Positions 3,308 through 51,014 of a stretch of DNA of 64,000 bases are shown piece after piece (the stretch's first letter is position 1; the number at the start of each line of letters is the position of its first letter). The stretch lies in contig NZ_JACYFK010000005.1 of NCBI RefSeq assembly GCF_014855515.1, positions 1-64,000 on the forward strand. The letters are read 5' to 3'. A model generated the notes under the pieces. It was not told the DNA's origin, made no database searches, and was given only the letters and a program-made list of their open reading frames with translations. Source of the DNA: Euzebyella marina (GTDB taxonomy: Bacteria; Bacteroidota; Bacteroidia; Flavobacteriales; Flavobacteriaceae). The position numbers and the translations under genes are program-made.

Positions 3308-3440
3308 GTTTGCTAACATTGTGTATAATTAATTGTGGGCGGAATTTCCAACTGGAAATTCCTGCAATCAATTATATTTACTTCAGGCGGACAGTTTCCG
3401 GTGGAAATGTATGCAACTAATTATACACGAACCGTTGGCA
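3308..3440 (+). other. attC-like recombination site 3
   Basis: GTTTGCTAAC (3308-3317) is the exact complement of the cassette start GTTAGCAAAC (2773-2782). Outer arms GTGTATAATTAATTG (3321-3335) and CAACTAATTATACAC (3414-3428) pair at 14 of 15 positions. An inner GGAATTTCC/GGAAATTCC stem lies at 3341-3362. This is the clearest site in the array. Confidence 0.72.
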
Positions 3441-7098: not shown

Positions 7099-7232
7099 CA
7101 TTACAACACTGGCTATAATCCATTGCTTGTTTTTAGTTAATTGAAAATTTCCAACTTTTAACAACCTATGATTCCTACTCGGAAAATCCTGCGGATTTTA
7201 CTCGCAACGAAATCATAACCTTACCGTTGGCA
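7099..7232 (+). other. attC-like recombination site 6
   Basis: CATTACAAC (7099-7107) is the exact complement of the cassette start GTTGTAATG (6616-6624). It then reads ACTGGCTATAATCCATTGC, has an inner GAAAATCC/GGATTTT stem, and ends in ACCGTTGGCA at 7223-7232. Confidence 0.65.
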
Positions 7233-10190: not shown

Positions 10191-11765
10191 TTACATTTTG
10201 GATACTTTTTCGCCAATTTGTTTATATGCCTTTTTCATTTCCTTTTCAAACATTGGCCAAAATTTTGAATATTGATTTTTGATTGTATCATCACCATTGA
10301 TAGGTTTCATAACACGATTAGCTTTTTCTAAATAGCTTATGTAGTTACCCCAATATTGTTCTTTAGATTTTGAATATCCAGTTTCTGATTTTGGGTCTGG
10401 TTTATATATCAATCTTCTTTTTGCACCTTTATAACTAAACCTTTTATAAAGTCTTTCCTCAAAAAGATTATGACTTTTATTCTCTGGTTTTGTAGCGAAA
10501 TGAACACCTCTTCGAAAAGCTCTTTTCATACTTCTGTAGAATTTTGAAAAGCCAACAGTTTTTACTCTAACTTTTTTGCCATCATATTGAAAACCTAAAT
10601 ATTCAAGTTGTTTATTTGGAACAACTACATTCTTTTCGTTTACAATTCCACCGACAAATTCGCCTTTAATATTTTCATATCGATAAATATTTGTTTTTTC
10701 AGGTTGTATGTCAAGCTTTGCTAAATCCTCAATGGATTTGCGAATTAAATTGTTAAAATAATCTTCATTTTTTTGGTCACAAACTATAATTAAATCATCG
10801 CTATATCTTTGGTAGTAAGCATTTTTTTGTTGGGTCTCGTTAAATACCAACTCATCAAAATCAAGCATATAAATATTTGCAAGAGTTGCACTCATTGGAG
10901 TTCCTTGAGGAATTCCTTTCAAATCACAATTTTCTCGACATCTTTTATGTTGATGACTACAACTTTTTTCAACTCTTATCAAATTCGTTGCTTCTCTGAA
11001 AAAATCTTCTTTTGAGCAATATGTAACAACTCTTTCTCTTTTTAAATTCCAAATATGCTTGACCCTTTTGTAACGTAATTTCGTTTTCTTATCATCATTT
11101 TCGATTCCACGTTCGACTATAAGTCTATTTTGGAACTTACTAAATAAATCTAATTCATTAACATACCTCTTTGAAATTAAGCTTTTATATACATTATAAT
11201 GGTCTTCAGGCAAGCTATTAGATTTTAAAACACGTTTCCATTGTTTATGCAAAATTCTATGGTCAAGATTGTCAAAAAATGATGTAACATCAGCTACTAT
11301 CATCGACAACTTACGATGCTTGTTTTCTTCAATAAACTTAAATGTTTCAAAAGCGAACTCGATGTTACTTTTATTACCTTTCTTGCCTTCAACAATAGGA
11401 ATTTTTCGATAAGCTACTGCGCTAACGCCATAGTCTTCATTTTCAAGATAATTCTCATAAGCTTCAGTTAAATTATGACTGTAATAACTATAAACAATAG
11501 AATCAAGATGTGAGGCGTAAAATATTGGACGTTCTTTTGGTTTTTGTACTGACCTTTGTCTTTTCTTGAACTTATTTTTTGGAGCTTCCTTGTTTGGTCT
11601 ATACTTACGCTGATAAATTTTCTTATGAAGTAAAGGTGTGAATTTATGATTGGCGATTTTATCAGGATTTGTGACATATTCTATTACCCAACCTTTATCC
11701 TTTTTTTTGGTTAGTGGTTTACCTATGTGTGGATACTTTTTAAATTTTAGCCAATCTGGAATCAT
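10191..11765 (-). CDS. DRT2 (UG2)-like antiviral reverse transcriptase
   Basis: The protein has 524 residues from the chosen start, where WLKFKKYPHIGKPL begins like other members; an upstream in-frame ATG at 11810 is possible. Reverse transcriptase motifs appear in order: DVTSFFD (159-165), GIPQGTP (284-290), YSDD with the catalytic aspartates (321-324), and LEYLGF near 387-392. The conserved N-terminal YASHLDS, SYY, YENYL and VAYRKIPI blocks are, as I remember, those of the UG2/DRT2 defence group. There is no maturase or endonuclease domain, which argues against a group II intron. It is reversed relative to all other cassette genes and has a leader of about 330 nt. Class confidence is moderate; RT confidence is very high. 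Confidence 0.8.
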   Translation of the reverse strand: MIPDWLKFKKYPHIGKPLTKKKDKGWVIEYVTNPDKIANHKFTPLLHKKIYQRKYRPNKEAPKNKFKKRQRSVQKPKERPIFYASHLDSIVYSYYSHNLTEAYENYLENEDYGVSAVAYRKIPIVEGKKGNKSNIEFAFETFKFIEENKHRKLSMIVADVTSFFDNLDHRILHKQWKRVLKSNSLPEDHYNVYKSLISKRYVNELDLFSKFQNRLIVERGIENDDKKTKLRYKRVKHIWNLKRERVVTYCSKEDFFREATNLIRVEKSCSHQHKRCRENCDLKGIPQGTPMSATLANIYMLDFDELVFNETQQKNAYYQRYSDDLIIVCDQKNEDYFNNLIRKSIEDLAKLDIQPEKTNIYRYENIKGEFVGGIVNEKNVVVPNKQLEYLGFQYDGKKVRVKTVGFSKFYRSMKRAFRRGVHFATKPENKSHNLFEERLYKRFSYKGAKRRLIYKPDPKSETGYSKSKEQYWGNYISYLEKANRVMKPINGDDTIKNQYSKFWPMFEKEMKKAYKQIGEKVSKM

Positions 11766-12095
11766 AAAATAAAAAAAGGGCTGGTCGTGGCCTGCTTTAT
11801 GATGGTACAATCCTTATGCTACTTTACAGCGTTTAAACCTAGGTAGCGCCACTCATCGTTAGAATTAAATTCGTATCTTTAATACTTATAACTATGTTAC
11901 AAACATCTCAAATAGAACTCAAGTCATCCCTTGACCTTGTACAGGGCTTACGCTTTCTTGTTACAGATTGCGCCTGCATTTGGTTTTCTGGAATGCGTCT
12001 TCACACGTCAGCCAATTCCTGCGCGTGATACACCGAAGTGCATTGATAATAAAACGTGACCATCAGCTGTGTTCCCAGCCCAATAATGTCTTTCC
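11766..12095 (-). ncRNA. candidate DRT2-type template RNA / long leader
   Basis: About 330 nt lie between a probable promoter and the reverse transcriptase start, with no credible ORF on this strand. Known DRT2 systems have a non-coding RNA of roughly this size directly upstream of the RT gene, used as template for rolling-circle cDNA synthesis. Local self-complementarity is visible, for example GGC-CACGACCA-GCC next to the RT start. The call rests on position, size and gene class, not on a recognised sequence. Confidence 0.5.
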
Positions 12096-48070: not shown

Positions 48071-48505
48071 CTACCTACTTTTTGCTGCAATTATGTAATT
48101 GTAAATATTTCTAGTGTCTACACTATCTAGATTCTTAAAGGTATGGGCGATGGCCAAATGTGAGAAATCAGCATAAGAACCAATTTCAGTTTGATATTTA
48201 TCTCCGTTCTTAATTAATGAATCTTGTTTGGTAATAAAAAGATGAAAATAAGTTCTTTCCATTTTAGAGTCTAATCTTACCAGTAAATCAGGGTCGCTAA
48301 TTCCTCCGGATCTATGACATGCTGCACAATTTATATTAAATAATCTACGCCCTTCTGAATAATCGGCCAATGGGTCATCTACAATATCAACAACCGTAAC
48401 CTTTTTGATTTCCTTTTCAGAATTCAATAGATAAAAAAGTAATCCTGCAATAACAATTACAAAAGTTAGAAATGAAAGAGATAGGTACATAATTCGATTA
48501 ATCAT
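48071..48505 (-). CDS. small membrane-anchored c-type cytochrome
   Basis: The 144-residue protein has one N-terminal membrane helix (MYLSLSFLTFVIVIAGLLFYLL) and the haem-binding CAACH in LFNINCAACHRSGG. A methionine for the sixth ligand is present (for example in LDSKMERTYF), but which one binds is unsure. The domain is short for a cytochrome c. The partner is not known and no oxidase is nearby. Confidence 0.8.
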   Translation of the reverse strand: MINRIMYLSLSFLTFVIVIAGLLFYLLNSEKEIKKVTVVDIVDDPLADYSEGRRLFNINCAACHRSGGISDPDLLVRLDSKMERTYFHLFITKQDSLIKNGDKYQTEIGSYADFSHLAIAHTFKNLDSVDTRNIYNYIIAAKSR

Positions 48506-48651
48506 CTTTAATCATCAAATTGTTTTTAACGGTTTGTTTACCAGAAGTTGCGGACTTTTCCAATAAAATGTCCGCTGACTTTAAAGATAGGTTGCAAAGG
48601 ATTCCGTTCAGGAAATCCTGCCACAATGAATTATAGCCCGTGTTAGCTGTA
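48506..48651 (-). other. decayed attC-like site of the minus-strand cassette patch
   Basis: On the minus strand TACAGCTAAC is followed by ACGGGCTATAATTCATTG, the same left arm as in the main array (GGCTATAAGTAATTGC). An inner AGGATTTCC/GGAATCCT stem follows. The expected matching right arm is missing, so the site is probably inactive. Confidence 0.5.
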
Positions 48652-48655
48652 GTTT

Positions 48656-49336
48656 TTATTTTTTAAGAATATTTAGAATGTCCGCTACTAAATATAATCC
48701 GCACACTGAGATTCCAAAAAATGCATGTGTAACTTTTCCATTTGGAAGTATTTCGGTGATACAGAAATAGATTACTAAAACGCTTATGGGATAGAAAAAA
48801 ATCCTTGTCAAAATTTTTTTAAAGGTCCATTCATTTTCTTTTGCAATTTCTTTTTGGGGCTTTCCAACAAACTTTTCTGGAAATTTTTCTTTCTCAATAT
48901 TTTCGATGGTCTCTTTCAGTTCCTCTACCATTATTTTTTTCTCCGATTTAGATGCTTTTCTCATGATTAGGAATAGCACTAAAGCAACAAATAGGATAAA
49001 AACAGACCCGAGCCAACCCTTCATGAATCCATTTCCCAAAATTGGTAATAAGGAAAAAATTCCAATCATAACCATTGCTATTTTGTCAAATAGCTTACCA
49101 AACGGATTTAATTCAGATTTAATTCCAACAAGTTTGTTTTCAGAGTCAAATTGAAGATGAAATATAGGATAACCACCTCTTAACCAATGTGAAGAATACC
49201 ATAATAAAATTTCTTTTTCCCTAATTTCTCCACTATATCTATGATTTTTTATAAAAAACATATCATTGAAGTGAGTCTTTAGATTGCTCTTTTTTGGGTC
49301 AAGTACTAATTCTTCAATGTCCGCTTTTTCAATCAT
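48656..49336 (-). CDS. membrane protein of unknown function in a cassette-like unit
   Basis: The 226-residue protein starts at MIEKADIEELVLD. About 80 soluble residues precede two membrane helices (about 93-130), a charged linker with KETIENIEKEKFPEKF, and two more helices at the end. No family is recognised. The gene is bracketed by an exact 10-bp inverted repeat (48642-48651 and 49352-49361), the same arrangement as in the main array but reversed. Confidence 0.6.
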   Translation of the reverse strand: MIEKADIEELVLDPKKSNLKTHFNDMFFIKNHRYSGEIREKEILLWYSSHWLRGGYPIFHLQFDSENKLVGIKSELNPFGKLFDKIAMVMIGIFSLLPILGNGFMKGWLGSVFILFVALVLFLIMRKASKSEKKIMVEELKETIENIEKEKFPEKFVGKPQKEIAKENEWTFKKILTRIFFYPISVLVIYFCITEILPNGKVTHAFFGISVCGLYLVADILNILKK

Positions 49337-49351
49337 TCTGTTTTTGGAAAT

Positions 49352-49470
49352 TACAGCTAACGTAGTAGTATAGATCATATTATCTATACTTATTTTATGT
49401 GAGGAACTAAGATAAAATAAATCTGACTCGGTTGGTGGGCACTCTTGGTAATCCTTTATTTGTACTTTCC
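49352..49470. repeat. palindrome-centred repeat, copy A
   Basis: About 110 bases starting CGTAGTAGTATAGATC match 50151-50260 with scattered changes. The core (49367-49390) is an imperfect 24-base palindrome (AGTATAGAT with ATCTATACT). It directly abuts the TACAGCTAAC that ends the neighbouring cassette-like unit. Confidence 0.65.
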
Positions 49471-49566
49471 TTTATAATGCTATGAATTGTCAGATGTAAA
49501 AAGGGGAGGGCTACAAATTTGATTGCGACTAAGGTTAGAGTATGAGTAATTGCATTACATTTGTGT

Positions 49567-49696
49567 TTGTTGTGTGTAAGTTGGCACTCCGCCAAAACGG
49601 AAAATGTTTACCTGAGACTATAGATAATTGACTACAACGAATTCCGTTTAAGAAATCTAGCTGCAATTAATCATGCTTCATGTTCCTATTTCGTAT
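49567..49696 (-). other. possible decayed attC-like sites flanking the lipoprotein gene
   Basis: On the minus strand ATGATTAATTGCAGC and GTAGTCAATTATC lie around an inner AGATTTC/GGAATTC stem, and ACACACAAC follows further on. The layout is that of the main array, but the pairing is poor. No gene. Confidence 0.35.
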
Positions 49697-50086
49697 TCAA
49701 TCACTTACATATTCGTTAATGAAGCAATCATTACAATAATCAATTAAAGTTAACCTGTTTTCCTCCAATTCATAGAATTGTGTAATTCCTAAGGGGTCTG
49801 GTACTATCAGTTCACGAGATTCGCCATTAGTATCTATTAACTCAATGGTATATTTAACTTTGGAAATTAAATTACCATTCGTAAAATATTTTATGGAATC
49901 AGATGATACTATAAGTTTTTGAATCTCTCCTGTGGATTCAGGAGTATAAGTAATTTGTGCTAATCCTCCTGTTGATTTTACCCACCTCCATTCTCCGATT
50001 ATAGTCGTTCTTATTTCTCTGCTATCATCATTAGAGCAATTCGTGTACATCAGTACAACTAATGTTAGAAACAATATCCTTTTCAT
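49697..50086 (-). CDS. lipocalin-like lipoprotein
   Basis: The 129-residue protein has a lipoprotein signal (VLMYTNC) and then IIGEWRWVKSTGG, the typical opening of the small lipocalin-like lipoproteins of Bacteroidota, and repeated strands such as SDSIKYFTNGNL and FYELEENRLTL. The ligand is unknown. It lies between two copies of a palindrome-centred repeat. Confidence 0.7.
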   Translation of the reverse strand: MKRILFLTLVVLMYTNCSNDDSREIRTTIIGEWRWVKSTGGLAQITYTPESTGEIQKLIVSSDSIKYFTNGNLISKVKYTIELIDTNGESRELIVPDPLGITQFYELEENRLTLIDYCNDCFINEYVSD

Positions 50087-50150
50087 ACAGAAATTGGTTT
50101 TCTTCGAAGATGTTATTGTGATTAAAGGGTTGCTTCTAAATACACCACAA

Positions 50151-50260
50151 CGTAGTAGTATAAATCATATGATTTATACTTGTTTTATGTGTATGCCTAA
50201 GATAAAATAAATTGGCTGTGCCAAGTGGGTGCTTTTGGTAATACTTTAATTGACCTTTTC
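50151..50260. repeat. palindrome-centred repeat, copy B
   Basis: Matches copy A at 49361-49470. The core (50157-50180) is a perfect 24-base palindrome with half-site AGTATAAATCAT. The downstream text TAAGATAAAATAAAT and CTTTTGGTAAT is shared by both copies. Confidence 0.65.
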
Positions 50261-50369
50261 TTTAAATATTGAAAATGAAGATTACATGACTTTGATGCCC
50301 TAACGTCAGTTTTGGATTTCACCGCAGGCAACCGTGCTTCTAAGCCCCCTAAAACCCTTTTTAGCGGAG

Positions 50370-51014
50370 TTAAATAGTCAAATCATTTTCCAGTTTTAAT
50401 TGAGAGCCAATTCGAAAAGCTTCGGCAATCAGCCACAGAAAAAGAAAAAAGAATACCGACTGAAAGGAGGTAAATGTAAAAAGGTTGGTACTTGCAAACT
50501 TAAGACCAGGGTATTCCAATTTATCATAAAGATATGATGAAGCAATAATAGTGGACAGTCTATCGAAGAAAATACACCCTATTCCCAAAAAGGCGATTGA
50601 CCGCAAGCGTATGGCGTTTTCCGTAATTAAAAAGTCGCCCAATTTTGCCGATTCTAAAATTCTAATCGTCAACCTCAAACCAAAGAGCACACAGAAGTAA
50701 GCAAGCAATGAAATACTGCTGTAGCCAATCAAAAAACCCAGAGGCACCTGATCTAGGCCAATCACTCCCATAGCATGATTTAAATTGAAGGTTGTACCTG
50801 TAATCTGCTCTGACATATTATAGAGTCCGTTTTGGTCAAGAGAGAACATTACGGTAAAGCCCGTCGGAAAAGAAGGAGAATCAGTAAAAATCGAAATGAC
50901 GGTGAAGAGTATATACAATGCAAGGCCCAGTATCATCGTAAGAAAGCCTATTTGAAAAATGATTAATAGAAAATTAATCAACAAACCCTTATGTAATCTA
51001 TTCTGAAGTACCAT
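50370..51014 (-). CDS. DUF2975 family membrane protein
   Basis: The 214-residue protein has four membrane helices (about 14-40, 95-115, 145-160, 185-205). The ending AEAFRIGSQLKLENDLTI is the conserved DUF2975 C-terminus. In most genomes this gene is followed by a small YozG-like helix-turn-helix gene; none is visible here. Function unknown, perhaps membrane signalling to that regulator. Confidence 0.75.
   Translation of the reverse strand: MVLQNRLHKGLLINFLLIIFQIGFLTMILGLALYILFTVISIFTDSPSFPTGFTVMFSLDQNGLYNMSEQITGTTFNLNHAMGVIGLDQVPLGFLIGYSSISLLAYFCVLFGLRLTIRILESAKLGDFLITENAIRLRSIAFLGIGCIFFDRLSTIIASSYLYDKLEYPGLKFASTNLFTFTSFQSVFFFLFLWLIAEAFRIGSQLKLENDLTI

Follow-up and report, generated by a model that had tools for sequence, protein, structure and literature searches.

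Probable remains of an integron-like platform with a palindromic attI-like site in Euzebyella marina

Results and discussion

Gene content and layout of the locus

The window analysed here is a stretch of 64,000 nucleotides from the genome of Euzebyella marina; positions elsewhere in this genome are given with the number of the contig (e.g. C1), and loci collected for comparison carry an L number. On the minus strand, two units resembling cassettes lie at positions 48524-50179, both having an attC-type site; below we refer to this region as the patch (Table 1). Unit 1 contains a gene for a predicted lipoprotein and unit 2 a gene for a predicted membrane protein, while the flanking genes encode a cytochrome c-like protein and a DUF2975 membrane protein. 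For the membrane protein no family of Pfam or NCBIfam scored above its cut-off, and for the lipoprotein a weak lipoprotein match was the only result with NCBIfam (18 bits, cut-off 130). When the four patch and flank proteins were compared with the collected loci, only the DUF2975 protein had a relative (in L054, with a second, weak one in L055). Rfam models gave no match over the window at their gathering scores.

Table 1. Features of the patch and its flanks (positions in the window)
Feature	Position	Strand	Remarks
Flanking gene, DUF2975 membrane protein	50370..51014	-	214 residues; Pfam PF11188, 37 bits
116-bp repeat, first copy (attI-like, heading unit 1)	50149..50264	-	79% identical to 49359-49474
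Palindrome GTATAAATCATATGATTTATAC	50158..50179	-	perfect, 22 bp; then 6 nt TACTAC (50152-50157) and GTT (50149-50151)
Unit 1 gene, predicted lipoprotein	49697..50086	-	129 residues; ORF
Degenerate attC of unit 1, 3' of the lipoprotein gene	49526..49686	-	attC model 21.2 bits, E 0.0016
116-bp repeat, second copy (attI-like, heading unit 2)	49359..49474	-	79% identical to 50149-50264
Palindrome GTATAGATAATATGATCTATAC	49368..49389	-	20 of 22 positions symmetric; then 6 nt (49362-49367) and GTT (49359-49361)
R' end of cassette 2, GTTAGCTGTA	49352..49361	-	exact partner of 48642-48651
Unit 2 gene, predicted membrane protein	48656..49378	-	240 residues; ORF
R'' end of cassette 2, TACAGCTAAC	48642..48651	-	exact partner of 49352-49361
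attC of cassette 2	48524..48648	-	attC model 40.7 bits, E 1.8e-8; terminal GTT 48528-48530
Flanking gene, cytochrome c-like protein	48071..48505	-	144 residues; Pfam PF00034, 25 bits

Cassette ends and attC sites

The membrane-protein unit has the ends expected of one integron cassette, with GTTAGCTGTA as R' and TACAGCTAAC as R''. A preliminary description of this DNA had pointed to an exact 10-bp inverted repeat around the gene, which was confirmed (GTTAGCTGTA at 48642-48651, its reverse complement at 49352-49361) and found to extend to 14 nt at 93% complementarity. The 10-mer occurs at two places only in the window, against 0.08 expected from shuffled sequences, and among 1569 background GTTs of the window just two have an exact 10-bp partner within 150-900 nt. 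The same description held that the gene is followed, on the minus strand, by an arm of the type seen in the cassette array at the start of the window (the main array), and this is also the case: the L'' of cassette 2, GGCTATAATTCATTG, is exact at 48624-48638 of the minus strand, and its best copy in the main array (at 7111) differs by one mismatch. Over the window this 15-nt arm has nine matches with at most three mismatches, against 3.2 expected; by itself, the arm exceeds chance to a moderate degree only.

A covariance model for attC was made from 20 sites, five of which came from the main array and the others from other genomes, none being from the patch. Search of the minus strand with this model, as had been proposed, retrieved an attC site for each of the two units (scores in Table 1). 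The site of cassette 2 appeared again in the whole-genome list of matches (E 1.3e-6); its L' arm pairs poorly with L'', i.e. it is eroded. The site of unit 1 (49526-49686) does not recur in that list at E 0.1, for which 150 of 1416 first-look candidates were scored, and the R'' of the lipoprotein unit (L031) no longer matches its R', in agreement with the weaker flanks that had been ascribed to the lipoprotein gene.

A simple hairpin scan for attC sites was of low power: with the exception of 3311-3440 and of 2385-2513 in one of its readings, matches in the window had scores similar to those of reversed-sequence controls. R'/R'' walking and the covariance model were used in its place. In the walking procedure a total of 14 is attained from about 10% of the null starts, and therefore weight was given to ends that match exactly or nearly so and whose sites measure about 131 nt.

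A palindromic attI-like element heads both units

Both units of the patch start 6 nt past a 22-bp palindrome that lies within a 116-bp repeat, a feature that had been missed in the preliminary description. The palindrome ahead of unit 1, which itself starts with GTTGTGG at 50151, differs from the common form of the clade by two paired changes, one in each arm. In the membrane-protein ORF the part 49336-49378 starts with an ATG inside the attI palindrome and reads on into the cassette. The attI could in this way supply a start codon, but the ATG at 49336, inside the cassette, is the likelier start of the gene.

A search of the E. marina genome (4.67 Mb, eight contigs) for the palindrome pattern gave eight matches and none in the control. 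Four exact matches and one with two mismatches are in the GTT orientation, and the remaining three are the same palindromes read in reverse. The five oriented copies are the two of the patch and those at C1:551621, C1:564235 and C7:87528; both C1 elements head units with an attC, while a search with the attC model found no site at C7:87528 (L033). With a relaxed pattern, 84,980 species genomes yielded 16 loci, 14 of which are in five Flavobacteriaceae genera (Maribacter, Saonia, Ulvibacterium, Flagellimonas and [Muricauda] meishanensis). The two others, from an Oscillospiraceae MAG (L046) and a Legionella MAG (L048), were set aside as chance matches of the relaxed pattern. When up to three mismatches were allowed, 27 oriented elements were found in 11 genomes, with up to five attI-like copies per genome; two of the 27 had no locus and were left out of the locus comparison. 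All three of these patterns demanded a GTT at a set distance, and their matches are not independent proof of the GTT.

The attC model was run on 22 attI loci and gave 37 matches in 12 of them, seven of which had themselves given sites to the model; one of the 37 is the opposite-strand reading of a strong match in L042. The other ten loci had no match, two of them being contig ends. At L052 of Flagellimonas aquimarina an attC lies just upstream of the attI, which provides a second instance of the attC-attI order of the patch.

Three palindromic attI sites (L037:5839, L039:92 and L049:1941) are orphans, with an upstream stretch that is different and yet similar among the three. Two of them share their position, following one and the same upstream gene, in two Maribacter species, and the C-terminus encoded by this gene is presumably that of an L-serine dehydratase, which it looks like.

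In relatives the element follows a XerA-like recombinase gene

On visual inspection, the bases before the palindrome belong to the 3' end of a tyrosine recombinase gene in at least eight of the 14 loci. This gene is intact and encodes 375 residues in Saonia flava (L040:2205-3329) and in Maribacter sedimenticola (L045), where the palindrome starts 17 nt past the stop codon. The first attC match of the S. flava locus is about 4 kb downstream, and the contig of L045 ends there. These are the two genomes with a full-length recombinase among the ten named element-bearing genomes. Contigs of the named collection have at least 3000 bases, and those of M. arenosus begin within the recombinase gene, so that an intact copy may have escaped detection there. 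Saonia has three elements alongside one recombinase. In the patch, approximately the last codons of the recombinase gene alone are recognisable 5' of each palindrome, and the part of the 116-bp copies beyond this recombinase end resembles, by eye, no other aligned copy.

The 375-residue recombinase was found in 50 of 299 Flavobacteriaceae genomes (E 1e-85 or better). The L040 and L045 proteins pass the NF040815 model for the XerA type (233.4 and 230.2 bits, cut-off 220) and fail the TIGR02249 model for IntI (183.5 and 187.0 bits, cut-off 265), and none of the 99 genomes searched had a protein above the TIGR02249 cut-off. Relative to Vibrio IntI4 (2a3v), the L040 protein has 25 residues between aligned blocks instead of 68; we assume that IntI carries its specific insertion here, and that the L040 protein lacks it. 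Residues R235, K260, K263, H324, R327, H350 and Y359 (L040 numbering) are at least 97% conserved in 31 sequences, and presumably constitute the catalytic set R, K, H-x-x-R, H, Y. Some of the residues 1-105 (L040:2205-2519) are conserved across the 31 aligned sequences; no Pfam model scored above its cut-off in this region, which is possibly a new DNA-binding domain. An AlphaFold prediction on a two-row alignment was poor (pLDDT 51), and the structure model was not used.

In another genome of the genus of E. marina (G002, locus L132) there is a recombinase with 56% identity; behind it come a palindrome of different sequence but the same layout and a cassette with an attC (a site that was put into the attC model). 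In E. marina itself neither an IntI above cut-off nor an intact 375-residue recombinase was found; as a number of contigs break off within or next to attC clusters, an integrase may sit in an assembly gap.

The same layout recurs in most of 30 recombinase loci. Two of these, L133 and L135, give matches to the query identical to those of L040 and L045; they were taken as the same genomes, counted again. Inverted arms of 8 nt (at least 7 of 8 paired), 6 nt before a GTT and within 130 nt of the stop codon, are present in 23 of the 30, the loci without them being L141, L143, L146, L148, L151, L154 and L157. As a control, the same rule was applied to GTTs further downstream, with 4 hits in 539. The outer arm starts 14-17 nt past the stop codon in 18 of the 23 loci and 35-54 nt past it in five. 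If the spacing is left free between 1 and 12 nt, perfect arms are found in 21 of the 30 loci, and in 20 of these 21 the 6-nt register is included. This check ruled out a 6-nt gap that is exact in all loci: 6 nt is the commonest register, and the inverted repeat can extend to 3-7 nt before the GTT. The arm sequences vary among species but remain inverted, with 136 of 152 positions paired in 19 distinct arm pairs (drawn from L132 and 28 of the loci, L143 and L146 being left out). Shuffling of these pairs gave a mean of 89 and a maximum of 108, but this test is biased, since complementarity was the criterion by which the arms had been chosen; the fair control is the 4 in 539 mentioned above.

Cassettes downstream of the recombinase genes show corresponding ends. 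R' and R'' of the first cassette match at 9-10 of 10 positions in 20 of the 30 loci, and exactly in 15, against a background over up to 3.5 kb of 11% for at least nine and 0.7% for ten. In L041, six consecutive cassettes have R'/R'' matches of 9-10 out of 10. The attC model was applied to 26 of the 30 loci, leaving out L135, L137, L139 and L148 with less than 200 nt downstream, and gave 22 matches in 17 loci, all 22 downstream on the recombinase strand; nine of the 26 had no match. Compensatory changes occur in 10 of 14 L''/L' pairs, a value reached in none of 500 shuffles, whereas the number of pair types alone is not above the shuffles (308 of 500).

The main array and other attC sites in the genome

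The main array occupies the window from 1 to 12.4 kb, probably also covers C2:1-5.6 kb, and has attC sites of the same family as those of the patch. Beside it, at C2:5654-5869 (L026), lies a remnant of a recombinase, a decayed C-terminal piece in opposite orientation to the cassettes. This remnant matches a 284-residue recombinase type (L087, L099) at 75% over 63 residues, and the 375-residue type that owns the patch palindrome at 56% over 54 residues. As it is closer to the 284-residue type, the integrase of the patch was probably not the recombinase of the main array.

At E 0.1 the genome has at least 23 attC matches in ten places, seven of the 23 being part of the model, and this count is a lower bound, with 150 of 1416 first-look candidates scored. 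At four points a contig ends within or next to an attC cluster (C1:2118.9k, C4:319-322.8k, the start of C2 and the start of C5). The assembly thus breaks within arrays, and the main array may be longer than it appears.

Alternative explanations

The patch could, in principle, consist of ordinary chromosomal genes with chance repeats. Short repeats are common in AT-rich intergenic DNA and the 15-nt arm by itself is weak in this respect, but an attC match with E 1.8e-8 and a palindrome common to other genera make this explanation practically negligible. The preliminary description had offered two other possibilities, namely that the recombinase also inserts at secondary sites, or that an older array decayed here. 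The former was our starting hypothesis, in which an IntI-type recombinase or that of the main array would have inserted cassettes at random attG-like sites of the genome; it would agree with the isolated attC matches in the patch and at C3:495k and C3:607k, and attG sites are cited as targets of IntI1 in the accessible part of PMC12901181. It was dropped when the palindrome was found 3' of recombinase genes. Both units start at this apparently dedicated palindrome, which is common to other genera and adjoins the recombinase gene in relatives, and the same element heads attC-bearing units at C1:551k and C1:564k, so that secondary-site insertion now seems very improbable. The latter possibility is supported by the presence of an attC in both units, by the erosion of the unit 1 attC and of the L' of cassette 2, and by the missing integrase.

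Another explanation concerns the palindrome itself, which might be an operator or terminator of the recombinase gene, the cassettes using a GTT that merely follows. Its position just behind the stop codon and its often perfect symmetry would suit a dimeric repressor or a hairpin, and the distance between palindrome and GTT varies by a few nt. However, the element is kept without the recombinase 3' end at L037, L039, L044 and L049, and L037 and L044 have attC sites downstream (the L037 site was in the model); the GTT at these four loci was demanded by the search pattern and is not counted. We therefore regard a purely regulatory palindrome as unlikely. A better case can be made for the origin of the two attI copies by capture of an attI-cassette unit (attI-ORF-attI) instead of by local tandem duplication. 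The accessible part of PMC12901181 reports that attI1-ORF-attI1 arrangements are excised at very high frequency, and the attC just upstream of the attI in Flagellimonas aquimarina (L052) would fit such a unit. Against this, the 116-bp stretch common to the window copies is, beyond the recombinase end, unlike other copies by eye, which fits a local duplication, and capture thus remains the less probable origin, although a serious one.

A proposed platform and the history of the patch

We propose, with a probability of roughly 0.83, that the patch is what decay has left of an integron-like platform, one that had a palindromic attI and an integrase of the XerA-like kind. This reading is drawn from the sequences, in which the palindromes, their position, the cassette ends, the attC fold and the association with the recombinase are directly visible. 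In its intact form the platform would consist of a gene for a 375-residue XerA-like tyrosine recombinase followed by its attI, composed of a pair of inverted arms, each about 8 nt long and separated by a centre of 3-8 nt, about 6 nt, and a G|TT crossover. The recombinase would catalyse recombination between attI and attC, by which circular cassettes with a foldable attC of about 131 nt would be inserted at the GTT in a single orientation, reading away from the recombinase. The GTT-proximal arm and the R' box of the cassette would serve as two putative recombinase-binding arms across the crossover spacer, and the outer arm as a putative accessory or competing binding site.

In E. marina the recombinase would have been lost from the platform, leaving in the patch the order attI, lipoprotein cassette, attI, membrane-protein cassette. 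As the recombinase is gone and decay of the attC sites has begun, both genes would effectively be fixed. With regard to the order of events, the most likely history is that of an attI-headed array which lost its recombinase and in which the attI was duplicated. Duplication is suggested by the likeness between the two 116-bp copies, which upstream of the recombinase end match none of the others, but there are several routes by which a second attI may have come about. By analogy with the attI-ORF-attI units, which are excised very efficiently by IntI1 (PMC12901181, accessible part), we infer that an attI tandem would persist only after loss of the integrase.

The same gene and flanks do not occur at one place in all relatives. 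The mnmE gene was found in 11 of 11 genomes. For eight of these relatives the DNA downstream of mnmE was inspected, and it contains neither the two patch genes nor the two flanking genes. A comparison of these eight at mnmE gave no clean empty site because the whole stretch is variable, and hence the age of the insertion is not fixed by this comparison.

Comparison with known integrons

The intact relatives in other marine bacteria point to a separate, apparently undescribed kind of integron with a non-standard integrase. We lean, by a narrow preference, towards a separate integron class in Flavobacteriaceae, characterized by a XerA-like integrase without the IntI-specific domain, by a palindromic attI that this integrase would recognise and that varies among species and would co-evolve with it, and by several dispersed attI-headed arrays per genome that it would serve. 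By sequence, the closest solved relatives of the recombinase (residues 111-367) are the XerA/XerC-like recombinases 4a8e and 5hxy of the PDB, presumably from Archaea, with chains of 292 and 317 residues that are shorter on the N-terminal side. To our knowledge, no cassette arrays occur with these archaeal recombinases.

The proposed platform shares with IntI integrons a recombinase gene with an adjacent attI containing G|TT, cassettes in one orientation, and a foldable attC of the R''-L''-L'-R' type. It differs in the 375-residue recombinase, which is XerA-like, appears to lack the IntI-specific patch III domain (as seen in one protein) and has about 105 extra N-terminal residues, and in an attI with species-variable inverted arms and up to five copies per genome. 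According to the portions available of PMC9668308 and PMC9024848, the extra domain is what distinguishes IntI from other integrases. The position of the attI has parallels, as intI is transcribed towards attI in Treponema integrons and the archaeal attI lies immediately downstream of intI (PMC3607928 and PMC9668308, available portions).

With two attC matches (the second weak and missing from the whole-genome list) and no integrase, the patch in part resembles a CALIN (cluster of attC sites lacking an integron-integrase), for which the accessible text of PMC9024848 gives a threshold of at least two attC sites with no integrase nearby; it is unlike a CALIN in retaining two attI-like sites and in that the lost integrase was probably not IntI. 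It also resembles the attI-ORF-attI cassettes of class 1 and 2 integrons (PMC12901181, accessible part) in having a gene between two attI copies in direct orientation, but here the attI sequence and the recombinase are unrelated to theirs, each attI heads an attC-bearing unit, and the recombinase is gone.

For Bacteroidetes proper, the accessible text of PMC9024848 names a single complete integron, that of Salinibacter ruber. In the open-access literature, which leaves subscription papers mostly outside, we found no description of integrons with a 375-residue integrase or a palindromic attI in Flavobacteriaceae. Platforms with another integrase would escape surveys based on the IntI domain, such as that of PMC9024848 as far as its accessible text describes it. 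If the platform is active, capture of hairpin cassettes would be possible without the IntI-specific domain, and the simple layout of the attI (arms, about 6 nt, GTT) makes its recognition directly testable.

Other features of the main array

A noncoding repeat of about 275 bp is present in the main array between 128 and 10150 of the window in seven full copies, 91-99% identical to the copy at 3427, with more on C2. The repeat has long attC-like ends of its own, alternates with gene cassettes, and looks like a repeatedly inserted noncoding cassette. Reversed inside the main array, on the minus strand at 10191-11810, lies a gene for a DRT2-type anti-phage reverse transcriptase (PADLOC Drt2, 441 bits). 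A two-gene cassette at 1718-2370 matches the PADLOC models PD-Lambda-2 A and B, and we take this pair to resemble a HigBA-type toxin-antitoxin.
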